Positions 1 through 60,514 of a DNA stretch of 64,000 nucleotides are shown here, one piece after another. This DNA is from Micromussa lordhowensis (Eukaryota > Cnidaria > Anthozoa > Scleractinia > Lobophylliidae). Each line of letters begins with the position of its first letter. The first letter of the stretch is position 1. Where the stretch lies: assembly GCA_964020085.1 (NCBI GenBank), contig OZ026600.1, positions 18,846,302-18,910,301 of the forward strand, read 5' to 3'. Made by a program: the position numbers and the translations under genes. The notes under the pieces were generated by a model. It was not told where the DNA came from, did no database searches, and saw only the letters and a list, made by a program, of their open reading frames with translations.

Positions 1-3000
1 CAACATGGAGGTCTGTGCCCCAATGCTGTCAACTTGGGTTCATTCAAGGTTATCACGTGACTTTGACAGACCCGAGCAACTCTTCAGCAACGATAACAAA
101 TACAGTTGCCGAATTGTTTACGCGGTTCATAAATCTGAAAAAGTTTCACATGTACCAGTTGTCCATAACAGCGTTTACATCCAAGGGTTCTGGACCCAGC
201 GCGTCTACAACGGCATCCACTGATCAGGATGGTATGTTTAGTTTAAAAAGTAATTTACTGGTATTAATAATACTTTGAATTTGGGGTTTTAAAGGGGTTT
301 TCAATTCAGTGCTACATGAAATCAAAGCAACGGAGTTGGGGGACGGACCATTATCTTTTTGAAGGGGGGTGAGGGAGCGGGGGGGCGGGGGGGGCAATTA
401 AAAGAAATCCCGCGCAGCAAAATCTGGTGAAATCTGGCCATGGGACAAAACAAATCGCGCAAGTGCTTTCTACTAACCAGGACCTGTTTTTTGATGTTAA
501 AAAGTCCTTGCACAAGCTTTTGCCGACCAAAAAAAATCATGCACAATCTGAAAGTGACTTACCCAACCCACTTCCCCCCTCAAAAAATAATGGTCCGTTC
601 CTAACCAATCATAACCAACGTAAGCAATGCAACCAATGGAAGTTCAAAGCAAACCCACGAGACCGGCGCCAAGGGTAGGAAAACGCGCATGCTCAAGTCA
701 CGATTGATTTCAGTTTTCAACCTGGAGTTGAGTAAGAGGCGTGGGTTTCGTTAACCAATTAACAAATTGACGTCAGTTTTTCATGCACCTGCCCTGTTAT
801 TGATCATAAATTTCGTCATTACATTGTCAAAGTAGTCTGCGGATCCACTCGGCTATCGCCTCGTGGATCCACAGCTACTTTGACAATGTGATGACGAAAT
901 TCATTGTCAATAACAGGACGGACTCATCAAAAACTGACGTCAATTTGTGTTTTACGATAACAAATGGTCGAATTGCCCGCTCTCGCTCGCTGACGCGTCG
1001 CACGAATTTCAAATTCATGTGTCTGTCCGCATATTGACGATAAAAATTAGCCAATGAGCGCGCGAGAATTTCTGCAGTTATCGTAAAATCATGGATCGTA
1101 GCAAAGCAAAACCAACGCAGTTTTGGGTTACTTTTGGCACTCAATTGAAAGCCTCGCAATTGCAACGTAATTCCCTCTAAAAAAACTCAGATCACTTATT
1201 TTTTTTTTAATGCAATACATTTTTAGTATTTAAGGATACTTTTTAACCTTCTATGTGTATATGTTAAATAGTAATTTAAAGAAAGTGAGAAAAGAACACA
1301 CTATTTCAAATGAGTCATAAGATATTTTTATCTAAAGAACGAAGCATTTTACGCCTATTCTAAAAAGTAGAAACACGAGTGGCGGTTTGAAAGAATTCAC
1401 GTCAACATACATAGTGGTTCTTAGTTTTCTGTACAAGATTATTTAATACGCCTCACAAACGTTTTAAAGTTATTGCAATCATTGAAAAGTAATCTTTTTC
1501 ATTTCAGTTCCAGAAGCACCTCCGCAAAATGTCAGCGGCTACAACATGAGCCAGACAGAAATCCATTTATTTTGGGCCCCAGTTCCTGCAGACAAAGTTA
1601 ATGGCATTGTAACAGGCTACAAAGTCTCATACCGAAAGGCTCAAGGCCATCAGCCTGTTCAATACAAAAGCTTTAATAGTTCTTCTTTCCAGGCGGTAAT
1701 GGATGGACTAAGTCCTTTCACAGTCTACAACATTGACGTAAGGGCATTCACCATTAGAGGAGATGGGACTCCCAGTCCCTTTATTACTGTACAAACTGAA
1801 GAAGAAGGTTGGTAGGTTTGACGAATACGCGACTAGTATATAACAAAATGCATCACTTCTTTGCTCGAAACGCCTTGCTTCCTTAAGCTTGGTTTTCACT
1901 ACTACATAAGCACATAAGCATAACGTGAAGACGTCCACAACACAAGCAAAATCACGTAGGCATGCAATGCATACTTGCGCTTCCAGACCTCCTCGATACT
2001 GTAAAACAAGATGGCGGGCTTTCGCTTGTGATAATTATGCTTACAGCAGCGCATTCTCAGATGGCATAAGCATAAGCTCAAGCTTGTGCTTATATCGCAG
2101 TGAAAATCAGGCTTTAGTCCCTTACTGCCTTGCTTCCCTTACTTACGCAGGGGCCTCACTAGGAGCGTGCAGCTACCCCATAGTCCTGTCAAGGCGTTTT
2201 CACAGACCGATCTATTTTTAGTCTGAATTTACCGCGAATTCAGACCCCCACGCAGGAACCTCAGTGACCAATCACAAGCACGGACTTAACTGACGTCATC
2301 ATTTCACCGGAAGGTTAAAAAGAAAAACAACACGAGGTCGCCATTTTTTCCCTTACCGATGCGCGCTCATGTAGACCGGAACTGACTTATTTCGCGGGAA
2401 AAGAACCCTAAAAATAGACCGGTCTGTAAAAATGCCGCGACATAGGCTCAGGATGGGAATTGCATGCTCCTAGTGATGGCTGGCTCCTGACCTACGTCGT
2501 TACTTGTTCACTCGCTCGTATTTTTCAATTCTCTTCTTCCTAACCTACTGCCAACGCTTGTGTTATTAGCTCCTCAAGTTGCACCGGGGACATTTCAAGG
2601 CTTCAATTCAAGCTCAACTTCCATCGTGCTGAGTTGGGACCCAATTCCTGTAGGGCAAGTCGCCGGAATCCTAAGAAATTTTCACATCACGTATCGCCCG
2701 TTAGATACCGCTGACAACACCACATACAACATTTCGTTACCGATCACGAACTTGACGCTTGAAATAACTAATCTACAGAAATACACCAACTATAGCTTTG
2801 AAATTAAAGGAGTTACGAAGTTCATTGGAGCACCAACGGAACCGATTATCGTCACAACTGGCGAAGACGGTACGTCTAGACTTTTGTTTCTTCATTGATG
2901 TTATTTTATTGATGATTTTACTGTGGTAACCAGAGTTTCATTCGCAGGAGATTCGTCCTGTGAAGTTACTCGAGAATCTATGCAGCCACAACGGAGACGC

Positions 3001-4665
3001 GGAGGATCACGTCAATTTATATATTAATTTAGTTCTCCTTAAGAATTTTTCAGAACCCCTGATAAATTCAGTTTCTCTATCAGTGTAAGAACTATCTCCT
3101 GGTGAATGTGCAAACACAGGTCATTAACATTGGTCATTAATCTAATAGTAAGATTGCTCACGCATGTGCAGCGCCATTGTACCAATCATTAAGCCTTTTG
3201 TTTCGGAATGTTCTGGTCGCCGTCGTGGTTGGTGTAAGCTTCTACCTGAGCCTGCTTGCTGGTCAGAGAGGTTACTTGGCAACGTTACACGTTCTTTTGC
3301 CGTCATCGCCGTTGATGAAACAGTGACTTCCCTATTAAAGCACACCAACAGTTCTTAAGCATAACAGTGCTTGTATCATAGTCAGTAACAGCAACATCTC
3401 GAACGAAATCCTCCACTGAGCTTAAAGGTCGGCAGACACTAGGGAACATGCGCGAAGCGGGGGCTTGTCGCAGCGACAGTTTTCCTCGGCACGATGTTGC
3501 GAAAAATCAGTGTTAACGGGACAATTTTTTCCCCGAAACATGTTGGATGAAATTCGGTTGGTTTGAATTCGTGCTCATCATGATGAAGCAAGAAAACAAA
3601 TGACCTCAATTTTCAAGGTCGCATCGTGTGCTCTCCTCTCGCAAACTGTCCCCGCTACAACAGATTTTTATGCCTCAATCCGCGTCGCGTGCACCAGCTT
3701 GCGGACTGTCTCTGCAACATGTATCATATCCGCACATACGAAGGGGCTTGCACCCGCTTCCCGTGCCCGCAGCATGTCCCCTTGTGTGTACTGACTTTCG
3801 CTACAATGACAACATTTCATTACTCGGTTAGACGTTTTATACAATTAGTTAAAAAATGATCTTTTAGCCCTAACCCTAATGGTTACCAGCTTCCTGAAAT
3901 AACTAAAAAGCCAAAAATGGCAGGGAGCTGGTTAAAATGTATCAGTGTTAACGTCCTATTTTTTTCTGTCGTTTAGTTCCCAGCCTGCCTCCTCAAGATA
4001 TCAAGATACAAAATTCGAGCTCTACAAGCATTTCAGTTCGGTGGAAACCGATCCCCAAAGACCACGTTAACGGCATACTCCTGGGAATGAAACTTTTATA
4101 TCGATCTGCTCCAAGAGACAACAGCATAGTGTTCAGGTCCCGCGCGAGGCGTTCAACAGAGGAACGCTGGTCTGAGTATACCAACATCACTTTACCTCCG
4201 GGCGCATTATCCTATGAAATGACTTCTTTGAAGAAATTCACCAACTACAGTGTCGTCATACTGGGTTTTACATCCAAAGGAGATGGAAATGTTAGTCAAC
4301 AATTTGTTGCGTCTACGGATGAAGACGGTCAGTATGACGGGGTAGACATGTTCCAAATGTTCCTATTTTTAGTAGACTGCGCGCGAGCATTCTCTTTTTC
4401 CTCGTTTTCCTCGAAGATTCCGTGAGGAAACAGCACAAACGAACGAGAAGAGGAGATCGGCGGCTGTTCGTTGGCGTTCTTCCCCGCGCCATACAATTGT
4501 AAAAAATCTTGTTTTTGTCCGCTTCTTACTCGAACTTGTGGTGGATTCCTTCTTAAACTCTTTAGGAACGTAAACTTAAGATTTCCTAAGATTTTTCTTT
4601 TTTAATGAATTTAGTTCCGCGCAGGTGAAAATGTATATTGATACTTGCGCGTTATAAGTAAATAA

Positions 4666-4706
<41 letters not shown>

Positions 4707-7700
4707 CATTATCATTATCATTATCATTATCATTATCATTATCATTATTTCCAAAAGACGCGCAGAATTATTCAGAGTCTAACTTTTGTTATATTTTAGT
4801 TCCCAGCATGCCACCGACCAACTTTATGCCCATATCACGCAGCGGAGACTTCAAGATGTCGGTGACCTGGGACCCAGTACCAGATGGCTTTGTTCACGGT
4901 ATTCTGTTGGGCTACCACGTTTATTACACGAAGATTCAACAGACAGGCCGGCCTGTTACCACCCTGATAGATAAAAAAATCTTTGGGCCATATGATTACA
5001 ACACCACCATATTGCTTCTCGATAACTTCGCCATTTACAATTTGGAAATTGCAGCTTTCACGATTAAGGGTGACGGAGCGAGATCGCAGATCAAAGACGG
5101 ATGTAAGTAAAGCGTTTATCAAGCCATAGAATTTTTCGACGGTTTTCTTTTAGCACATTTCCATAGCTTTCTCTAGAATGGTCACACACTAGGTTCTCAT
5201 ACACAGACTTGAAATCTAGGAACACTTTAATGGTTACACACGATCATTTCATTCACAAATTCAAGAGTTAAAACCACCTTACACAGCATAGTTAAGAAGT
5301 ATCACATTATTTTATTATTATTAACTAATTATTAACCGAGAGTGAGGTCTTTAAGGGAAAATCTCAGACCGAGACCTTGCTGTATTGACCGAGCGATAGC
5401 AAGGTCAATACGGCAAGGCCGAGGTTTGAGATTTTCACTTAAACTGAGACCGAACGTTCGAAGTTAATACGTTGTTTATTATATGGCTCTTTGCTTTGTT
5501 TTTGTAACCCCGTAATCGGCCCGTGGGCATTACGGGAGAATAATGCCCGAGAATTAGCCAATCAGAGCGCGCGTTATATCGGGTACAAGAACAAGCCACA
5601 TAATAAATGAAAGTACTGCACAGTCTCTTTCATTTGAATGGTCATATGCTACCTAGGGGTTCATCCACAGACTTATAAGCTAGACCTGCCTTTTACAGCA
5701 GAATAAACGGTTACACATGGAAGTGCACGCAATAACTTTCATCTGAAAGCTCACATTCTAGGATTTCATACACAGACCACCTTGTGCGGCATAAGAAAGA
5801 GTCACATGATAGTGTCCTTAAAAAGCTTTTATTTGAATGGTCACACTCCGAAACCTCATCCATAGACGAAAACGTAGGCAACCGTTAACTCACTTCAAAT
5901 TCAACTCCAGGACTAAAAAGGCCACCTCAATCTTGACTCTTCTTTTTCTTCATCCCATCAAATCTAATTTTGGAGGCTAACTCCACATAAGCCTCACCTC
6001 ATTTCAGATGCCAGTGCTGTTTTTCATTCTTGTTAAAACTGTGGTACTTAGGGCACCAGTCTCTCGCCTCAATAGAACCTCCAACCTGTTAGACTTCAGG
6101 AACTCAATTGCGCTTGATTTTCAGCCACGTGTAATTGCCCACGGGTGTTCAAAACGACGTGGTACCCATTCCCCCCGTACGTTACGTACGAGGACGGCGT
6201 AGTGGGAGGTTTTATTCCTCGCATCTTAGAAGACGCCGTTGAATATTGCTGCAGTGACTGTCTCTTACCCAATGGGAGATCAGCGTCTGCCATCAACTTT
6301 GAGCTGGACGGAAGAGGAAACCTGGCGCCGAAGTCCGGCGTCGAGGAACTAATCAGCAGCATCGATTCCTTGACGGATTTTAGTGTTCCAGTGAATGGCT
6401 ATCAAGGACAGACTCACTACTCTATCTATCGTTACGTAAAGTTGGCTGAGTCTCCGGGTGTGGCCTTTATAACTGTTATGGACCCCAGCGAGAAAACGTT
6501 CGCCATCGCAAACGTTTTCATTCAATCATGGCCGTTGCTTGTGTTGACGTTTATCATGATGCTTGCGGCAGGCATGGCGATGTGGATGATGGTATGTGAA
6601 CCGGGGGGGATAAGCCATTTCCGAGTTGCTTTTGCCTCTGTTTCAAAACGAGTGTTCGTGCAAACGTTTATGAAAATGAGTTTGATTTGCATGAAAATAA
6701 ACTCATAGATAAAGCGCATTTTTATTACAATGGTTTCCTGCGAAGTCTAGTTTTGACACGGAGGAGAAGGACAACATCAGGAATGGCCTATTCGCGTTTT
6801 TAGATGTAGAAACTCAATTCGATTCATTTCTATGACAAAGCTAGTCGGAAATTCGTTAAATTACAAGAGGAAGGCAATGTTCTGCTATGTTTTTTTGTGG
6901 AGGTCAAGTTAGAGGCGAAATTAAAACCTGTCACCAAACTGTAAGAGTTAACTTATTAGTTAGCAGGGTTGGCCGCACAATCCCGGTATCATTTGGTACA
7001 CGATAGAGGAGAACTGGGAGCAGCTTTATCATTGTATTTTAGCACGTTAAACGGCAATAGTATAATAGGAAGACGTAATCAACATAGACTTAATCAATGT
7101 GCATACATTTGTTTACCTTTTAGGAAGCTCAAGCAAACAGAACAGAATTTCCAAGATCCTTCTTTCAAGGAGCCTCTGAAGGAGTCTGGTGGGCTTTCGT
7201 TACGTCTACTACGGTGGGGTGAGTCAGACTTTTGTCATGTCATGTCAAAATATGTAACTACTCAGTATTCTTCGTGAGTCGTCTTGAAAGGTTATCTTTC
7301 TACCGATTTGACCGAAGCCAAAGTCTCGATAATTTCGCCATATACAATTTGGAAATTACCGCTTTCACTGGTGAAATGAACTGGGAAACAGTCGGAAACT
7401 GGCTCTTGTGTACTTTTGGCAGCGCCAGCCGATGATCGATTCTGTTAACTGACAACACTTTCCCGCAAAGACACTTGGTTATCTAGCAGGGAAAATAGAC
7501 CGAGAAGAGGAGCGGGCTAGGGGACAAATAACCCACGGGGAACTGTACGAAGGAAAAAGGGAACAAGTTAACTCCGTGTGCGCTTCCCTTTCTATTTCTC
7601 ACTCGTTTTAATGAAGGAGACCACAGGAAAAAAAACTTATAACATTATCATAAAACAGTGAAACAAACTAAACTTCCTCAAGCCATTTCACTGAACAGAC

Positions 7701-10700
7701 TTTCAGTTTTTGTAGTAAGTAGGTAGTATCTCTAGCTTGCCATACGTCATTTGTGTCACCCATTGCAGTGATCCTTCTTATTTCTAAACATGTTGTTTAG
7801 GGTACAGTAACACCACCCCGATATACCACCGACAGTTGATCGATATTTAATCGATACTATCAACCGATACATCATTGCATAAAGAACCGAGAGTCGAGCG
7901 ATACTCGGCGAAACTCCGCCGAGTATCTGCCGCCGGCAATCGGTTAATAGTTAATCTATACCTAGCGATGCACGTGGGCGCTACCAAAATTTAGCCCGCG
8001 GTCAGTTTTCTCGTCTTGTGATGAGGATAAGTTTGAAGTCCCTCGACGAAACTCTTTCAGGTACGGTGACCGCTGTCCGAGATGGGTGCTGTCTCGTATG
8101 TTTGCCATTGCTTGGACTGTGTGTGGATTGGTTGTAATTGCCATATTGACTGGAAAAATCGCCACGGCATTGACTGACTTCGGATATACAGGACCGTATA
8201 TACCACTGTACGGGGCCGAGGTAAGTATAATCAAAGGCGCGAGTTTGATTGGTTAGAAACCATTATTGACAACATTTTACCAGATCAAACAGAGCTATAA
8301 ATCTTAAGGACGTTCGCGCGAAAATTTTCCAGTCGATAGAATTTTTTTAAATTTTTACTGCAGGCAGATAATGAGTTACTTGTGCCAGATATGCAAAAAT
8401 TGTCCCATATAATTGAGCACGGTCTACAGGGATTTACAGTTAAAAATATCGAAGGTGAGTCAACGGAGGCAAACGATCTTAGTCATATTTTGTAGAAGTG
8501 GGTCTGTTGCCTAAATAATTTCAAATGTTACTAACGTTTTCACAAAATTTAACCCTTTAAGAGGCATTTGAAACCGCCGCACAGGTGCACAAAGAGCTAT
8601 TAAGAACGGAATTCGATGGTGCATTTTGCCAAAAATTCAGTTTTCTAGTCGATAGATTTTCTTCATTTTTTCCCTAAAATCAGTAGAGGAAATGATTTAT
8701 CCAAAGAAAAATTGGGGTCACCGAACGTCCAAGATCGTTAAATCCAGGCAAAGCTCTAGCAATGGCCATCTGCCTGCCATCATTTGTTTATTTTCTGACT
8801 TAGCGCGCGCTCGATGCATGACGTGGCATGTGAATTTGCGTGCGCAGTAAGGATGCGCAGAAACAATTAGCGCGAACGTCCTTAAGCCTCGTCAAATACT
8901 CCAAAAGCACGAGATGATTTTAAACTTTCCTCTTAATCACGCATTTGCTTACATACCAGTTCTGATGTACGCTAAAAATATTTAATCGGGACTGGGAGTA
9001 TGAAGAGCGTAGAAATCGAATTCGTCATCCGTGCATATTTCCTTTTTTGCATCATGAACAAAGGACCACGTCAATTTTATTGCATTTGTTTTATAAAAAT
9101 GGATCCCATTAAAGCCAACCGAAATTTACGCCTACCTCTCAGCTGCATCCATGACATGATTCACCCTTACAGCAAACCATTCAGAGAACCTCATTTATAA
9201 ATATATTTTAATAAGGATGCTTTGAAGCCAGTTTGTTCTTCTTGTTCTGACTGTGTCTGTCTGTCTATGTCCTTTCTTTCTGCTTTTTTTTTTTCCAACC
9301 CTGTATGTATAGGTTGCAGCTATTGCAAATAATTCTGACTTTCGACTCGGTGTCCGGAAAAATGCCAGGGTGAACACAGGTAAGTCTCTTAGGTGAACCG
9401 CCATGACCCCAGGTCAGGGCTGGAGTTCAATTGTTAAACCCACGACAGTTCCCTTTAAAAAAGAATGAGACCCAAGTAGGATGCAAACGGTCAGATGTTT
9501 CTCTTGTGAAGTGGCAATCAAGTTGTTCTATGAAAATGTATTCTACTTGCACTAGGTACCGATCGAGTTGTCATGCAACTATAGTAACGATGCTTCCGCA
9601 CAATCAACTCGCCAGAGTGGAACGTTTCATCCCTAACATTTCTGCTAATGACCTAAAGCAGATACTTATACGTATTGTTACCTCGCTTGCATCAATTCAG
9701 TGCGTAACTACAGGACGTACGAGGAAATCAGCCAAGCACTAAAAGACCAGGAAGTCAAAGGAGCCTTAGTGGACCTATATGTGCTGTCCTCTCACAAGCA
9801 TCTGTTTGATGACCCTCGCTTCAGGATCGTCCGCGTCTACGACTACAAGGCTAGTTACGGTGTGGTCCTAGCTGGTCACTCCATGAAGCTAGAAGATTGC
9901 TTTACAGAACACATTAAGGCGCATACAGCGAGCGTGTTCCAGAAGATCGAGGAAAATGTCAAGATTCTTAAGGTGAGATTGGGCCTATAAGACAACTGAA
10001 GTAGTCCATCACTGCCAGCCTTCCACGCACTCGTTCTTTTTGCTCGTTGTGCAATCTTGTTTTGGCTGTATGCTTGCTAGCTAGCTGGGAAATGTTTTTG
10101 TTGGGGCCTTCGTGGGAAATGGATATGTCAGACACGTTCCTCCTCGGAATGCGGAACAGATACAAATTCTCCCAACAAATGGAAGACTTCCCTATTCATT
10201 TACTTATTCATTTTTTATCGAAATGGATTTTGTGGCTCGTAATCAAATCTTGCAAATCTGCTCGCTGGCTGCTCCTGAGCTTAGAATTGGTTCTTCGAAT
10301 ACCAGTCTATAGCACGGTTCCTAGAAGTTTCCACAAGACTGAAGTGCCAATACCTTATTGAAGGCGGTACCAGGTCCCCAATGGCCGGCTACGTCATGTA
10401 AAAACACTACTATTTTGATTTTCTTAGGAACCAGACGAAAGCCCAGCTGAACAGCAGTCCACAAGTCTTTTTGCCGTGAGCTCACCGCAATTCATAACCG
10501 CAGTCATAATTATCGCTTCTTTGTTGCTTCTTGCTTGTGTTTTGGGAATCATCTACGAAAGTCGTCGAAGGAAGACCAATAAAGGTGTGTTCTGTCACTT
10601 GTCTTATCAGCTGCAACTTCATAGTTACAAAATTAAAATTCTCTGATCACTCATCTTTGTTTTCTACGAGCGATTATAGTTTACCACTAAATTTTCTCCG

Positions 10701-12350
10701 ATTCGTACTGGTTTGAATTGATCACGTGACGCGATAAGGAGACTACCGGCGTATAGTGCCCCGTCCCAGGAAAATGCCCGGATGGACAATACTCGTCCGT
10801 GAAAATTTTTCTGTAAGCAAGCTGGCTATTGGAAAACAAACAATTGAAAGACGCAATTTGTTGTGAGAAGTATGGCTACTCGCTTCGTCGTTGTCATCTA
10901 AAAAAGTTGAAAGTAATTCAATATGATTTTTGAACTGGCGCGAAGAAGAAAATTTACTTGTAAACAATAAAGACAATAGATTTATGTCTCGAAACTATCG
11001 GTCTGATAGTTGCCCCTTGGAAATGTGACGTTCTTAAAACTAGCATATTTGTCCTCAAAGCTTTGCTTCTAGGGTTAATATTTGATTTAAGAACATCAAA
11101 TTCACGCGGGTCAACTATCAAGCCGATAGTTCCTCGACAGAAACACTCTATGGTTTAAATTGTCAAAGAGGCGCAGCGTTAGTTGCCTATCGCTCATAGA
11201 AAACGAGACACTCTAAAAGGTAACAATTGTATATGTATATAGAGCGCACAAACCTCCAGCTTTCATTCGCCGAAATATGAGGGCTTCAGGTATTAACGTA
11301 CTTCAAAATTTGAACAAGAACACGACTCCAAAACTTACGAGTTACACCAAACGTTTTGTTAGTTAAGACTAGGAGGTCATCCTTTCCTTTTCTCTTAAAG
11401 TTCTGGGCAAAGAGGAACGAAAATCGGATATCCGCAATAGTTGACTCCAGTTCGACCTAATTGATTTTCATCAACCCTCCTGCGATCTCAAAGAATCTGA
11501 AACCTAGTTTAAAAACTTTGGTGGTGCGGCAATCCCACGGGCTTCTCGGTCGCTATTTCGAGAAAACCTAGGATACCCTGGAGACGAAGTTGGTTTACTC
11601 TCGTTTGAAAGCCAGATGGCATCACCTCTAAAGGTTACCATCCAACAGTACAAATTTCATACAAATCTTCTTATATTTTTATAGCTTTTAAACCGCCTTA
11701 AAAGTTTACATTTAGAGATCATGGACTCAAAGTAGACGCCTTACTTTGTAACCCTAACCCTAACCCTAAGGTCATGTGACAGTGTTATACAAAGGTTTCC
11801 CATAATATTTTAACTTTCTAGTAAAAGAGAGTGCAAGTCAATGCTTCTTGTTCAAGAGTACCAGACTCGCATGACTACGAGTTTACTTTTATCGTTTCTT
11901 GCAGTTTTAAAGCAAAGTAAAGACCTCAAGAACGAGATGTCTCCGCTTGTCGACAGTTTCCTCGTCAGCATCAAGAAAAAAGTAGAAGCTCTATCAAAGA
12001 GGCACCGTCAAGACAGATGTCACGTGATGCGGCTGGAAAAGGAGCGTGACCAACAAGCAGGCTACGCAGTCAACAAGTATTACCAAGTGCTAAGCATGCG
12101 TGACATTCGACAGCAATGGTCCCACCGCCCTTTGTCTGTCATAAATGTGGCGTCCTCATTGAATGGCAAAAATTCTTACAATCCAACGCTGTGGCCCTTT
12201 ACTGAGGCAGCTAAACCTTTGTCACCCAATGTCACGCAATCCTGGAAACACGGTTCTCTTCCCTCGGGAAGAAAGCAGGGATTTGACCTCCCGGCTGCTC
12301 CTGTCACACTGGAGCCGAACGTCCGTGTCATAGATGAAACAAGCTTGTAG
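1..12350 (+). CDS. FN3-repeat ionotropic glutamate receptor-like channel with K+-type selectivity filter (5' incomplete)
   Basis: Twelve exons can be joined in phase: 1-231, 1508-1807, 2570-2869, 3977-4327, 4800-5102, 6125-6591, 7124-7218, 8061-8220, 9313-9379, 9701-9972, 10428-10584 and 11905-12350. They give 1048 visible residues ending at a TAG. The first five exons each encode one fibronectin type III domain (W.P.P..G.I.GY core, YN..I.AFT.KG end) and have symmetric phase-1 borders. Exon 6 (about residues 495-650) begins an extracellular ligand-binding lobe (WYPFPPYV, then GGFIPRILEDAVEYC) and ends in M1 (about 628-650). Exon 7 is the pore helix, ending TTVG; exon 8 continues YGDRCP and M3 (about 691-712). 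Exons 9-10 are the second ligand-binding lobe. Exon 11 holds M4 (about 870-892) followed by ESRRRK, so the tail is cytoplasmic. The topology M1-P-M3-S2-M4 is that of iGluRs; the filter is that of K+ channels and of bacterial GluR0. No LIVBP-like amino-terminal domain is seen. Ligand and ion selectivity are inferred. The start lies outside the window. Confidence 0.85.
762..950. repeat. Foldback element (MITE-like)
   Basis: The arms starting AAATTGACGTCAGTTTTT and ending AAAACTGACGTCAATTT are inverted copies over nearly 90 bp each. They meet at GGATCCAC...GTGGATCC around 842-872. Intronic in the channel gene. Confidence 0.75.
1892..2125. repeat. Dispersed repeat, related copy at about 52100-52425
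   Basis: The AAACAAGATGG, CAGCAGCGCATTCTCA and GCTTATGCTT.. blocks occur in the same order in both places, and the copy's ends contain inverted CATAAGCAC/GTGCTTAT. Confidence 0.5.
2157..2476. mobile_element. MITE with about 65-bp terminal inverted repeats
   Basis: The left end CACTAGGAGCGTGCA...CAGACCGATCTATTTTTAG is inverted at the right end (CTAAAAATAGACCGGTCTG...GCTCCTAGTG). No coding capacity. Confidence 0.75.
3427..3802. repeat. Imperfect inverted-repeat element in channel intron 3
   Basis: GTCGGCAGACACTAGGGAACATG at the left is roughly inverted by CATGTCCCCTTGTGTGTACTGAC at the right. The interior is CG-rich relative to its flanks. Short open frames here are not coding. Confidence 0.5.
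4663..4749. repeat. Microsatellite (ATT)n then (ATCATT)n
   Basis: A few ATT units are followed by about eleven ATCATT units, just upstream of the FN3 exon at 4800. Confidence 0.95.
5313..5610. repeat. Foldback-type dispersed repeat in intron 5
   Basis: GGGAAAATCTCAGACCGAG and GGTTTGAGATTTTCACTTAA are inverted around a TTGACC...GGTCAA hairpin core. A GC-richer tail (AATCAGAGCGCGCGTTATATC) follows. No gene. Confidence 0.55.
7327..7372 (+). pseudogene. Relic of an FN3 exon inside the channel gene intron
   Basis: The intron between exons 7 and 8 contains a stretch reading DNFAIYNLEITAFT. It closely matches the end of the FN3 exon at 4800-5102 (DNFAIYNLEIAAFT), with only a few base differences over about 45 bases. 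No flanking domain start or splice sites remain. This looks like a decayed partial duplication of that exon. Confidence 0.65.
8304..8885. mobile_element. TTAA-flanked non-autonomous element (piggyBac-like ends)
   Basis: The ends read TTAA-GGACGTTCGCGC and GCGCGAACGTCC-TTAA, so TTAA could be the target duplication typical of piggyBac. The interior is AT-rich and non-coding, with the GTCGATAGA block repeated twice. It lies between exons 8 and 9 of the channel. Confidence 0.7.
10988..11137. repeat. Inverted repeat in the last intron of the channel gene
   Basis: AACTATCGGTCTGATAGTTG...GTTCTTAAAA is inverted by TTTAAGAACATC...CAACTATCAAGCCGATAGTT. The rest of 10585-11904 shows no coding signal. 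Confidence 0.6.
11750..11768. repeat. Short interstitial telomere-type tract (CCCTAA)3
   Basis: ACCCTAACCCTAACCCTAA, the animal telomere unit, about three copies. It is too short to mean a fused chromosome end. Confidence 0.8.
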
Positions 12351-35940: not shown

Positions 35941-36700
35941 CACCGGGTGCCGACCAAAAGTAGCGCGGCCTCTGGGGACGAAAATGTGGCTGTGCAAGGC
36001 CATTACGTGGAACATAATAGTCTGTGTGCAACGTAACATTAGGTGTGCAACTCGACATTGGGTGTGCAACATTTGAATAATTACCACCACCTGTGGTTCC
36101 TCGAGTAATCTAACACCGCGTCAGTTCAGACGTAGCCTGCGTACCTTTTTGTTTTTTGCCGACCTTCCTCCTCCCCTCCCCCCTTTATACGCCCGCTACG
36201 TAGGCTAGTTCAGACGTACCGGGGCTCTTTTCCACCCAGGACTCATAGAACGCGTGACCCTATTCGCTTTTTCTGTAGACGTGATCTTGGGGGGACTGTG
36301 ATGAAACATGTGATGACACATGATCTGAAGAGTCACACCCGTATGACGTAACGAAAACAGCTCTTGCTCGTGGTTGATTTGATTTTCTAGCTACAGTTGA
36401 AAGAGTTTACAACTTATATGATTTGTTGCCCGTACTGGCTCGTGTGCACAGTCGTATGAAACTTTTCATTTGTACTAGAAGTGAAGCGACAGTCGATAGA
36501 GGAACACTCCATCTTCGTTTGCTGTATTACCCTTGTTGTCGTCCGAACGAATATTGCGTTACAGTGCTCTTGACTGATACGGTGTAATCCCAATATCTCT
36601 TTCGCCGTTTCGCTTCTGTTCTCTGTTCCTATTACTTCTCTTGGTGGATTTAGGATTTTATAGCCACTGTTGGAATTGTGAAGGGTTTACAACTGATGCG

Positions 36701-37807
36701 ATGGGCAAGAACGAATCTAAGTTTCCTCAAACGTGTACAACAACCGACGGTTTGAAAATGAATTCTGTATTACTGGCGAAAAACCTGCTTTCTTCTAAGT
36801 TTGAAGACAGCGAGCTTGTCGCCAGGCCAGCGAAGGAATCGCTCAAGCGTTACACTGACTCCTCCGAAGACGTGGTACCTGCTTTGGGGTCAGTGGAGAA
36901 CATTTATTTCTTTGGAGATTGCGGATTGTTTTCTTCCATTATCACAGCCTACAACAACCACTGGAAACTACGAACCTCTCCAGATGACTGGTGGTTCTGT
37001 GTTATTAAACGAGTCGCTTGTGCAATCGACAAAAACGCCAAGAAAGAGTCCGTTCGTAAGATGTTCGTTGATCACGCAGGGAAGAAAACCATCGAGGTAG
37101 AAGTGCCCGATACAAGCATCTATACTGTCGACTACAGCTGGTTCTTTGATCAAATAGCGAAAGGAATACAAGAGAACGTGAAAGTACCCGAGTTCGTGGA
37201 TGGAATGACGGCAGATTTCAGCACCACTACTACAGTGCAGAAGATTGTTTCGCAGATTACATCAATGTATTCAGTTCAAGAGTATTTCCACTTTAAACTG
37301 GTCTTCTCGTGTGGAATCCCTGCAGTGGAGATGCTAGGTACTGAAGACGACTGGAGCAAGTTACAGTCCAAACTGAAAGTACTGCGAACACTGCTTGAAC
37401 CCATAGAGAACGACCTTGATTTGTCGTCAGAGTGGTGGGATCTTGTGGAAAAAGTATTCCGCGAATTGTTGGCTACTTACCAAGGAAGACCAGATAAAGA
37501 ATGGTGGAGTCATATTATCAGCTACGAAGAAAGCTTTGGATCAGGTGGTCAAAAACGTTACAGGGGCTGGATTACCGACTTTCTGGAGGGGACTAATCAG
37601 CCCATAGATATCGACGACATGACCACCGGCCTGGTAAGCGTTCCACTCATCATGGAAGACATTGCCCTTGGTAGGAAAGACAACGCCACACTTGTAGCGG
37701 GAATGCTGGGCTTCACTCTCCACACTGATGAAACCAAAGAGTTGTCTGTGCAGCCATTCCAAGGTTGGTCTCTTCTGCTGTCTAAAGACTCGCCATTTCG
37801 CAAGTAA
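36701..37807 (+). CDS. DUF4419 domain protein, intronless
   Basis: One uninterrupted 368-residue frame; the first in-frame ATG (36701) is taken as start. The frame is open 20 codons further upstream from a TTG, and a possible 3' splice acceptor (GGATTTAG) at about 36654 suggests a spliced 5' UTR. The sequence shows the DUF4419 hallmarks in order: an N-terminal FFGDCGLFSSIITAYNNH, SPDDWWFCVIKRVA, AGKKTIEVEVPD, DYSWFFDQI, the conserved ADFSTTT, FSCGIPAVEMLGTEDDW, the Trp pair SSEWWDLV, a second WW in DKEWWSH and the RYRGWITDFL end. This matches the usual family length. The function of DUF4419 proteins is not established; they are widespread in fungi, protists and some invertebrates. Nothing appears truncated. 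Confidence 0.85.
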   Translation: MGKNESKFPQTCTTTDGLKMNSVLLAKNLLSSKFEDSELVARPAKESLKRYTDSSEDVVPALGSVENIYFFGDCGLFSSIITAYNNHWKLRTSPDDWWFCVIKRVACAIDKNAKKESVRKMFVDHAGKKTIEVEVPDTSIYTVDYSWFFDQIAKGIQENVKVPEFVDGMTADFSTTTTVQKIVSQITSMYSVQEYFHFKLVFSCGIPAVEMLGTEDDWSKLQSKLKVLRTLLEPIENDLDLSSEWWDLVEKVFRELLATYQGRPDKEWWSHIISYEESFGSGGQKRYRGWITDFLEGTNQPIDIDDMTTGLVSVPLIMEDIALGRKDNATLVAGMLGFTLHTDETKELSVQPFQGWSLLLSKDSPFRK

Positions 37808-56287: not shown

Positions 56288-57813
56288 ACGACGCCAGGAA
56301 TTGGAAAACGAAGTAGATGAGCATTTGATTCTAGAACAGGAATTACCGAGGAATATCATTCGCTTCCCTCACAACAGAATAAATCAATTGCAAACCCTCA
56401 GCAACACCAAGAAAACAAGGCAGCTCAAAAATCACGCGACCACGTGTACGCAGTTGAAACAACATCCGTTCCATCAATGTTTCTGACGCCGGTTCCATCG
56501 CTAATAACCGTGAAATGCATGGGCAATTGGAAAGAATCCGAATTCCAATTTTTTCAGGAAATAAGATGGACTTTCAACGCTGGAACGCGGCTTTCACAAG
56601 TTGTGTTGACATGACTTCATTATCGCCGCAATTCAAGATGTTGCGCTTGGAGGCATGTCTAGCCGGAGAGGCCGCGAACACAATTAAAGGATTAGGATAC
56701 TCATTATCATTACGGGATAATAAGCATCGTCATTCTAGAAGGTTTACTAGAAGCTATTTCAGCGACAAGAACGGAAAAGGCAATCAAAAGTGTTGTGTAT
56801 GTACCGGGAACCAAGTACTGTTACAGTGTGAAGCATTTCAAAAACTTCCCGTTGACGAAAGATGGCAAATTGTCAAACGATTTGGTCTGTGCTTCCGATG
56901 TTTGGCGGATAACCATCATGGCAAGCCCTGCCCAAGAAGCAAGCAATGTGGCATTAACGGATATACAGGAACTCATCAAAATATAAGGCGCCACCTGCTC
57001 AATTTCGTCTGCGACCAGAAGCAGAATCGTACGTTCAAACTTCGACCACGCCCCTTCAGCCAACGACCAACGCAAATGAGAGATCGAGAGAAACCGTGGA
57101 GGGGAATGGTACCAGGCAATCCGTTACTATGGAAACGTTTGGACATCAAGAAGGACAACCAGAGGTGGCGTTACGAACAGTCCCGATCATCTGAAAGAAC
57201 GGAAACAGGAGAATTATGGTTTACTGTTTGTTAGATGAAGGTAGTGACACGACTTATGTGAATGAAGATGTCGTTAGCGAGCTCGGACTAACAGGCGAGA
57301 AAGAACCAATCACAATCAACGTAGCAAATGACCAAACCCTCCGCTTTATGTCAAGCTCATTTGAGATTGGACTTGAGAGTACCGACGGCCGAGTAGACAC
57401 GAAGAAAACCGCCAAGACTTCAAACAAAATCTGCGGTGGTTTGTTAACGTTCCCAAGGCTCGCAAAGGGAAATCGAATCGACGTAGTTCTGGGAGCAGAC
57501 CATTACGAACTGATTTATTCGATGAAAGAAATGACTGGAGACCCGAATGAACCCTGCGCGAGACTATGCCCCATAGGATGGACTGCCATTGGAAAGATTC
57601 AGAACCTGGACACAAAGGAGAGTCACTGCACTGGCTTCCATCGCATATTTCGTCTGCAAATCGAGAGAGGAGAGCCCACGTTACCTGAGAAGGACACCTT
57701 AGAGCTAAACCACTTGCTGAAACGTTTCTGGGATCTGGAAAGCATTGGAATTATCCCAACCGGTCCGCAGCTGACACCGGAAGATAAGTTGGCATGGGAT
57801 AAAGGAAGTAGCC

Positions 57814-58479
57814 GTGGCATATCAACAGGTGATTAACGACTACTTGGATAAGAAGTATATTCGCCGTGTTCCTGATGATGAGCTAACGCCCAAATGTCGG
57901 TGGCTCGTACCCCACTATCCAGTCGTGCGACCGGAGAAAGCAACATCCAAAGTGCGACTAGTCTTCGACCGTTCAGCGCCTTTTGAGGGAAAGAGTTTAA
58001 ATACTGAAGCCCTAACCAGACCGAAACTTCAAAGTGACGTCTTTGACATCCTCGTGAAGTTCAAAAAGGAATGGGTGGCTCTCGTTGGAGACATCAGTCA
58101 AATGTGCTACCAGCTTCTGTTATTTCCAGAAGACCGACCGATGCATCGTTTTCTTTGGCGAAACATGGAGATTAACAAAGAACCCGAAGTGTACGAGTTT
58201 CTCCGCTTCGTGTTTGGTGGTTGCTACTGCCCATTCTGTGCGCAATTTACCTGGCAGAAGCATGCAGAAATCCACTCGTACTCTCTGGCTGCGAGTGCAG
58301 TAAAGAATCTTTGTTACATGGATGATCTCATGCCGTCCGTGGATATCATTAAGAAGGCCATAGAAACAAGACGCCAGTTGACAGAGATGGGCGATAAAGC
58401 TGGATTCCACGTGAGAAAGTGGGTTTCGAATCTTCACGGAAGTGTTAGCAGATGTTTCCGTAGATGTCCGTGCTTCTGA
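57814..58479 (+). pseudogene. BEL/Pao reverse transcriptase fragment
   Basis: A 221-codon open stretch carries palm/finger motifs: KCRWLVPHYPVVRPEKAT, KVRLVFDRSAPFEGKSLN, LVGDISQMCYQLLLFPEDRP, HRFLWRN, LRFVFGG and the active site NLCYMDDLM. The first catalytic Asp is in GDISQMC. The frame breaks at about 58440 after KWVSN and the RT/RNase H region continues in other frames, so this is a fragment of a longer pol. Confidence 0.85.
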
Positions 58480-60124
58480 AATTGATCTAGAGAAGAACTC
58501 ATTGCCCGTAACGAAAACGCTTGGTGTGTCCTGGACCGCACGAGAAGACCAGTTCCTGTTTTATTATTCGCCTCCTTCGAAGGACTTTGAATTCACTTAG
58601 CGGAACGTCCTAAAGAAGACAGCAACCTTATTTGATCCACTTGGATTTTTCTCCCCGTTCGTGGTTAAAGCAAAGCTGTCCATGCAGAAAGCATGGCTGG
58701 ACGCATTGGAATGGGATGAAGGCCTCCCGTCTGAGCAAAGAGAACAATGGAAGACCTGGTTCAGCGAATTGCCCCTCCTTGAAGAAATCAAAATTCCGCG
58801 TTGTTTAAAAGACACAAGTAAGAAAGAAAGCTCTATCACTCTGCACACCTTCTCCGACGCAGCCGTCTATAGCGGACACAAATTCGACGATGGAAGTGTC
58901 ACTACTCGTCTTATCGCATCCAAGACCCGTTTGGCTCCGTTTAAGACTGTGAGCTTTCCTACGCTTGAGCTTATGGGCGCTGTCATCGGTCTACGATTGG
59001 CAAATCAAGTCTGTTCAGCACTCGGATCCCTTCAAGCAATGTCACATACTGGGTGGACCACTTGAATGTGGGCTATTGGATCAGGGGACAGAGCCGCGAA
59101 TATAAACCCTTCGTTGCTTACCTCGTGGGCGAGATTCACGAAAAATATAACCCTGACCAACGGCGTTACATACCAACAGATATGAATCCCGCAGATCTTG
59201 GAACCAGAGGGATGACAGCGCAAGAGCTAACCGACAGTACAAAGTGGTGGAACACGGGCCTAATTTCCTATACAGTCCCGAGGCAGAGTGACCTGAACGC
59301 AAGTTTGACAAACCGTCACGTGAAGCACTATGCGAGCGCAAATAAACATCCAGACCGATTAACGAAAGCTCAACAAGCTACAATGCCATTCAGCGGTTGG
59401 TCAATGAGCCCGAAGTAGAAGAAGTAGAGTGGCGTTTAGAACCCTCCAGATATTCCAAGTGGTATAAAGTGAAACCCAAAGGACAGTTGGAGGTCGGATT
59501 ATCATTGGTGCGGGTCAAAAGTTTGGTAGAACGATTTGTCAGCAACTGCCGTAGGCCTGAAAATCACATAGTACTTGGAGAACTAACTCCAGTAGAGCTC
59601 ATGACAGTCAAAACAGCAATCATCAGAGAAGCCCAAAATGAAGCATACAGTGACGAAATCGAGGCACTGGCAAAGAACAAACCTCTCCCGCGGAAATCCA
59701 CCCAGGATTGTACATTCGAACACGAGGCTGCGGCACTCCAACGATCACCCAAATGATGTAAAATTCCCTATTATTTTGCCAAAGAGGAATCATGTCACCC
59801 GACTAATTGTGAAGTACCATCACGAAAGTGAAGGCCATCAGATGGCTGTGAACTACACCATGAACCACTTGCGAGAGAAGTACCTAGTTATCCATGTCCG
59901 TGAGGAGGTCAAACGAGTAAACAGAGACTGCCGTGAATGTGCAAGGCATTTTAAAGTCCAGCCAGTCCAGCAGCAAATGGCTCCATTGCCAAAGATCCGT
60001 CTCCAAAACCGTTCGCTAACTATGGAGTTGATTTTGGAGGACCGTACCTTACCGTTCAAGGGCGTGGACGATCTCGTGCCATTGTTTGTTTTTGTGCTTG
60101 CAAACACACTGCTGCCATTAAGAG

Positions 60125-60514
60125 ATGGCGACTTCATTGGATACTGGGGCGTTCCTCAACGCTTTGGTGCGAATGGCGGCAAGGAGAGGATGGCCGACGA
60201 AAATGCTGAGTGACAATGGAACGAATTTCCTGGGTGCCGAGAAAGAGATCAGGGACTTAGTGAATCAACTAGAGCATGATCGGCGCCAGCGTATGACATC
60301 AAATCACGGCGTCACTTGGTATTGGAATCCTCCGGCTGCTCCCCATTTTGGAGGTGTGTTTGAATCGATGATCAAATCGTCAAAGCGAGCAATTTATGCT
60401 GTCCTGAAAGATGCAGATATCAACGACGAAGAGCTGCAAACAACATTCATTGGAGTCGAAAGTCTAATGAACTCAAGACCGCTGATCACATCGAGTGACG
60501 AGTCCGCCGAATGA
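60125..60514 (+). pseudogene. BEL/Pao integrase core fragment
   Basis: The frame contains AFLNALVRMAARRGWP, MLSDNGTNFLGAEKEIRDL, WYWNPPAAPHFGGVFE and LMNSRPL, the DDE integrase segment with the second Asp (SDNG) and the Glu (GVFESMIK). The region with the first catalytic Asp, just upstream, is frame-disrupted. The frame stops after SSDESAE. Confidence 0.85.

Follow-up and report, generated by a model that had tools for sequence, protein, structure and literature searches.

A gene for a putative potassium (K+) channel of the ionotropic glutamate receptor (iGluR) type lies at the start of the stretch of coral DNA analysed here, 64,000 nucleotides from Micromussa lordhowensis (contig OZ026600.1 of assembly GCA_964020085.1, positions 18,846,302 to 18,910,301; hereafter the window), and probably encodes a plasma-membrane channel subunit of the GluR0/AvGluR1 type that combines a K+ filter with an adhesion-type ectodomain. 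As rebuilt, it has 12 exons, from 3-231 to 11905-12350, which join in frame into 1048 residues without an internal stop, with AG/GT signals at all internal exon borders and phases consistent throughout. The protein runs through a row of FN3 domains, the first half of a ligand-binding domain (S1), a membrane helix (M1), a pore helix with selectivity filter (P), a further helix (M3), the second ligand-binding half (S2), a last helix (M4) and a cytosolic tail, in the order FN3(n)-S1-M1-P-M3-S2-M4-tail. The gene reaches past the window start, where its first exon is cut, and its N-terminus lies outside the window. A preliminary description of this DNA had proposed an FN3 ectodomain, an iGluR-type core and a K+ filter in one GluR0-like gene at 6125 to 10584. 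That combination is upheld by Pfam matches, by alignment to an Acropora protein and by hhalign, and the six channel exons within the interval (6125-6591 to 10428-10584 in the list below) have GT-AG borders and matching phases; the interval itself proved too narrow, the gene having FN3 exons upstream (to 5102) and a C-terminal exon at 11905-12350. The exons, with the evidence for each, are as follows.

3..231, + strand: FN3 exon 1, partial, read from base 3; phase-1 end in frame, tblastn match to FN3 repeats
1508..1807, + strand: FN3 exon 2; GT-AG, phase 1-1, Pfam fn3
2570..2869, + strand: FN3 exon 3; GT-AG, phase 1-1, Pfam fn3
3977..4327, + strand: FN3 exon 4; GT-AG, phase 1-1, Pfam fn3
4800..5102, + strand: FN3 exon 5, membrane-proximal; GT-AG, phase 1-1, Pfam fn3, continuous with exon 6125-6591 in the relative P0005
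6125..6591, + strand: first ligand-binding half (S1), then helix M1; alignments, AlphaFold models of relatives
7124..7218, + strand: pore helix, then the filter as far as STTVG; Pfam Ion_trans_2
8061..8220, + strand: remainder of the filter (YGD), then helix M3; Ion_trans_2, alignment to bacterial GluR0 types
9313..9379, + strand: start of the S2 half of the ligand-binding domain; conserved in relatives
9701..9972, + strand: S2 half, in which GALVDLY contains the conserved acidic residue; alignments
10428..10584, + strand: helix M4; hydrophobic stretch, long helix in both AlphaFold models of relatives
11905..12350, + strand: cytosolic tail with stop codon at 12348-12350; open in frame, aligns to the tail of Acropora P0053

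Splice joins and the K+ filter

As first described, the selectivity filter is shared between exons 7124-7218 and 8061-8220; intron 7219-8060 divides it into STTVG and YGDRCP between GT-AG borders of matching phase. The closest guide to the whole model is a predicted protein of Acropora palmata (P0053 in our numbering of relatives; LOC141890705, 1586 residues), 58% identical to the Micromussa protein over 940 positions in an alignment that has 7 gap positions and reaches from the FN3 part into the tail; by eye, the cut first exon resembles this protein near residues 570-648. Joins 4327/4800 through 6591/7124 are spanned by P0005 (325 residues, from a 1200-base contig), and joins 8220/9313 through 10584/11905 by P0003 (351 residues, 1405 bases) and P0004 (336 residues, 1228 bases). 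These three contigs are most likely spliced transcripts, because the stretches that they cover span several kilobases in the Micromussa genome. For the filter join 7218/8061, the only sequences that span it are predicted proteins (P0001, P0053) and transcript-like relatives at a greater distance (e.g. P0007, P0056). An extra exon at about 8364-8453, open and with splice-like borders by eye, was rejected, no such insert occurring in any relative in alignment A1. Inside the intron that splits the filter, positions 7324-7368 match the last FN3 exon at 41 of 45 bases, a relic that hints at a past exon duplication or rearrangement, and a long microsatellite of ATTATC type, seen by eye, occupies about 4665-4750 in the intron directly before that exon. 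A tblastn search with a 972-residue model of exons 2-12 found the channel only once in the 64 kb, the other matches being FN3 cross-matches and one intronic 15-residue FN3 fragment.

The filter was compared in a core alignment of 19 family rows and 19 bacterial rows, in which P0012 and P0017 are partial and P0053/P0054 and P0056/P0057 are close pairs. P0001 to P0005, whose core is incomplete, stand outside it (P0001 has the filter, P0005 ends within it, and P0002 to P0004 begin after it), as does P0023, which keeps the agonist arginine discussed below and groups with bacteria. The motif [TS]-T-[VL]-G-Y-G-D occurs in all 19 family rows, with GYGD invariant and V replaced by L in two; Micromussa has TTVGYGD, and an aromatic motif of the pore helix is almost invariant in the family. 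K+ selectivity is predicted from this filter motif only.

Domain searches with the 972-residue model, of the kind that the preliminary description had proposed as a check, returned four fn3 stretches (E 6e-39), with the partial FN3 exon as a fifth besides, together with Ion_trans_2 (E 5e-11) and Ion_trans (7.5e-8). The two ligand-binding families did less well: Lig_chan fell below its cut-off in the Micromussa protein (10.5 bits, or 12.3 for the channel part alone, against 30.8), and SBP_bac_3 was absent from the Pfam matches listed. Alignment A2 of the relatives has 12 rows, of which nine match Lig_chan at E <= 0.1 and two match SBP_bac_3; in half of the ten relatives scanned (P0009, P0010, P0011, P0013, P0056) Lig_chan exceeds its cut-off. 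Sequence searches of the PDB gave only K+-channel entries among the 60 matches listed, and the iGluR half was therefore tested by other means. With the pore removed, hhalign related the family's ligand-binding domain to that of bacterial GluR0-type receptors at E 5e-15 and a score of 100, the best of 20 shuffles reaching 17, and the homology to bacterial GluR0 types extends over 305 columns. For AlphaFold models of the relatives P0006 and P0013, all 50 Foldseek matches listed per model are ionotropic glutamate receptors. VIA-align of the relatives' models put GluR0 ligand cores at the top, tied with glutamine-binding proteins, and clamshells that bind amino acids make up the greater part of the structural matches listed; the 50 VIA-align matches listed include no AMPA or NMDA ligand core from an animal, an absence that carries no evidential weight. 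Helix M4 follows S2 in exon 10428-10584 and in both models (495-529 in P0006, 434-473 in P0013). In these alignments and models S1 and S2 come together as one predicted clamshell around M1-P-M3, with the fold and topology of the iGluR superfamily.

A family with cnidarian members and varied ectodomains

Protein searches brought together 23 close family members (P0001-P0018 and P0053-P0057), ten of which bear an organism name, all cnidarian: two each from Desmophyllum, Porites and Acropora, and one each from Nematostella, Actinia, Oculina and Hydractinia. Each search scored about 8000 candidates and reaches only relatives that share 5-residue words, a restriction that may bias it towards proteins with an intact filter; neither animal iGluRs nor AvGluR1 were among the full sequences that it brought up. 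The architecture is not a one-off but belongs to a family with several kinds of ectodomain, as Pfam scans of ten relatives revealed. In corals these are FN3 stretches (six in Acropora P0053, three in Porites evermanni, one in P. lutea); Nematostella has three TSP1, a SEA and three FN3 domains, the Hydractinia relative and P0011 have CUB and Ig, and P0010 has five EGF stretches, while three of the ten, from Actinia (P0013), P0014 and P0056, have no recognised extracellular domain. P0014 begins with a histone-fold and is perhaps a merged model. An LIVBP-like amino-terminal domain was listed in none of the ten at E <= 0.01, the Micromussa N-terminus being outside the window. By eye, the ectodomain of the Nematostella protein (P0055, LOC5496379) contains two near-identical segments, Ser/Thr-rich with TSP1, and seems itself to be duplicated. 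For P0002, of a Desmophyllum cluster, one UniRef name begins with 'Receptor ligand binding region'; its 351 residues span only M3 to tail.

A tree of 27 rows and 375 columns (17 family rows, P0054 and P0017 being left out, nine of the 19 bacterial rows, and P0023) sets the family apart from the bacterial rows and P0023 by a branch that measures 1.21 and has support 100. The same support unites the Micromussa gene with Acropora, the two CUB-Ig proteins, and P. evermanni with Nematostella, and deeper nodes within the family are weak (42-93). A scan of prokaryote genomes yielded at least 593 stretches and at least 431 relatives; the 80 loci kept show 26-45% identity across portions of the core, and these values together with the branch of support 100 led us to reject a recent transfer from bacteria. 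Of 63 loci from a viral scan, most match only residues 175-223 or so (filter and M3). One, L081 (2959-3972), is a 337-residue open reading frame of GluR0 type on a 264-kb IMG/VR viral contig, with a TTVGYGD filter and, by eye, the arginine of the agonist motif, suggesting a K+ glutamate receptor that is either virus-borne or mis-binned.

Among known systems, animal iGluRs (AMPA, kainate, delta, NMDA, epsilon, lambda) share with the family the fold of a ligand-binding domain with M1-P-M3 and M4. They normally have Q/R/N-site pores and an LIVBP-like amino-terminal domain, whereas the coral protein has a TVGYGD filter and adhesion modules. Protostome ionotropic receptors are iGluR-like, often without the classical glutamate-binding residues, and differ from the coral protein in having another ectodomain; they are not known to have a K+ filter. 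The pore sites and amino-terminal domain of animal iGluRs are covered in part by the available excerpts of PMC12226733 and PMC2924276. Bacterial GluR0-type receptors (Synechocystis GluR0; 'Group 1' in the extract of PMC2950845) resemble the family in S1-M1-P-M3-S2 order, K+ filter and clamshell fold; unlike it, their rows end after S2 and lack M4 (in the set of 19 as in the five of A1), carry no adhesion ectodomain and mostly keep the agonist arginine. According to that extract, from a 2010 catalogue of these bacterial receptors, a glutamate site combined with a K+ filter was, as far as could then be determined, confined to bacteria. This rule was broken by AvGluR1 of the rotifer Adineta vaga, described in excerpts of PMC12332018, PMC11479355 and PMC12226733 as an animal iGluR with a K+ filter and the eukaryotic four-helix architecture and, in the last, as activated by glutamate as well as by several further amino acids. 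A K+ filter in an animal iGluR is hence not new. The same excerpts mention no adhesion ectodomain in AvGluR1, which is set apart from the present family by description, not by sequence. Such cnidarian proteins do not appear in two metazoan iGluR phylogenies, as far as the available parts of PMC6307864 (main text without 'potassium', 'GluR0' or 'fibronectin') and PMC12226733 (without 'fibronectin') extend, nor was a description of the present K+-filter family found in the open-licence PMC literature, among the matches listed. The kind of channel, an iGluR with a K+ filter, is thus already known; ectodomain, ligand site and lineage are what is new in the present family.

Outside the gene, the window contains three features that were recorded in passing. 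On the minus strand, at 14420-18027, tetratricopeptide-repeat open reading frames (15578-16768, 17233-18027) adjoin one with a CHAT domain (14420-15577), unrelated to the channel. On the plus strand, a 409-residue open frame at 36578-37807 has a DUF4419 domain (E 4e-62), and a row of retroelement-like open reading frames extends over 56458-60514; one of them, at 57775-58479, matches reverse transcriptase weakly and below cut-off (E 5e-4), and the others were judged by eye.

Gating of the predicted channel

By analogy with GluR0, four subunits would assemble into an inverted K+ pore with the clamshells above it. Closure of the clamshells would open the pore, let K+ leave and so hyperpolarise or damp the cell, and the adhesion-type ectodomain would replace the usual amino-terminal domain and anchor the channel to the matrix or to a neighbouring cell. 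The order of the domains, the filter and the homology of the clamshell follow from the comparisons above; the tetramer, conduction, the ligand and this role of the ectodomain we infer. What would gate the clamshell turns on the arginine to which the carboxylate of the agonist binds (R485 of GluA2, according to the extract of PMC12226733). Its column has R in 16 of the 19 bacterial rows and in a single family row (P0015), and the T of the bacterial agonist motif is found in 18 bacterial rows as against one of the family's; Micromussa has T in the arginine column itself. Classical amino-acid gating looks doubtful on this comparison, because the arginine is so rarely kept in the family, and ligand-gated, the unqualified term of the preliminary description, is better taken as a prediction when the arginine is off its column in 18 of the 19 family rows, Micromussa included. 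Since the arginine is replaced, the clamshell may well answer to a signal that is not a plain alpha-amino acid bound in the classical manner, for instance to a ligand that uses a basic residue in the next column, or to the ectodomain. In that column 12 of the 19 family rows have K, H or R (H in Micromussa), and hhalign places the agonist-arginine loop differently from the core alignment; for these two reasons the shifted residue may do the arginine's job.

It is possible, if doubtful, that the protein is an orthodox K+ receptor gated, like GluR0 and AvGluR1, by glutamate, glycine or another amino acid, with the shifted K, H or R standing in for the arginine. The neighbouring basic residue would fit this, as would the largely amino-acid-binding structural matches and the acidic residue of S2 that binds the amino group, present in 17 family rows (16 D, one E; the others being an S and a gap) and as D in Micromussa; placozoan GluE2-alpha receptors without R485 are, moreover, still predicted glutamate binders, as stated in the available part of PMC12226733. 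The loss of arginine and T from the family argues in the opposite direction, and the nearest basic residue in the Micromussa stretch is a histidine. A second reading, to which we lend about the same tentative weight, holds that the clamshell is degenerate or structural and that the K+ channel is constitutive, or gated by contact or tension, under the control of the adhesion ectodomain. The arginine missing from its column and the constancy of the filter beside ectodomains of four kinds (FN3, TSP1-SEA-FN3, CUB-Ig, EGF) would agree with it; the clear conservation of S1 and S2 in anthozoan and hydrozoan members would not, nor would the want of a recognised extracellular domain before S1 in P0013, P0014 and P0056. 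Our judgement is about evenly divided between an amino-acid site rebuilt on a different basic residue and control that is non-classical or comes from the ectodomain.

Two further explanations bear on whether there is a channel at all. A filter motif by itself is no proof of conduction, and the protein might be a non-conducting shell that serves as an adhesion or signalling receptor; we hold this to be very unlikely, as a dead pore would be expected to drift, whereas the filter residues and the aromatic pore-helix motif are kept across the family as described above. That an FN3 adhesion gene and an adjacent channel gene were read as one, across a 1022-base intron (5102 to 6125) joined by splice signals only, deserves next to no credence and was rejected: Acropora (P0053), Porites (P0006, P0008) and Nematostella (P0055) have predicted proteins with the same fusion, and so does the 1200-base contig of P0005.

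Tentatively, and at no better than a minority estimate, we suppose an ancient, undescribed cnidarian branch of K+-selective iGluRs, in which the amino-terminal domain was exchanged for FN3, TSP1-SEA, CUB-Ig or EGF modules and the classical ligand site rebuilt, giving inhibitory channels that are tethered to contacts or matrix and respond to a new class of ligand. The findings suggest a little-studied group of animal receptors that would quieten cells instead of exciting them. K+-selective iGluRs connect K+ channels and glutamate receptors in evolution, and AvGluR1 is the only animal one named in those parts of the literature that were available; a family spread over anthozoans and hydrozoans would make a K+-filter stage in the ancestry of animal iGluRs testable with many sequences. 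Such a family would suggest, too, that adhesion modules can replace iGluR ectodomains and that early-branching animals had fast K+ inhibition gated by ligand or by contact.

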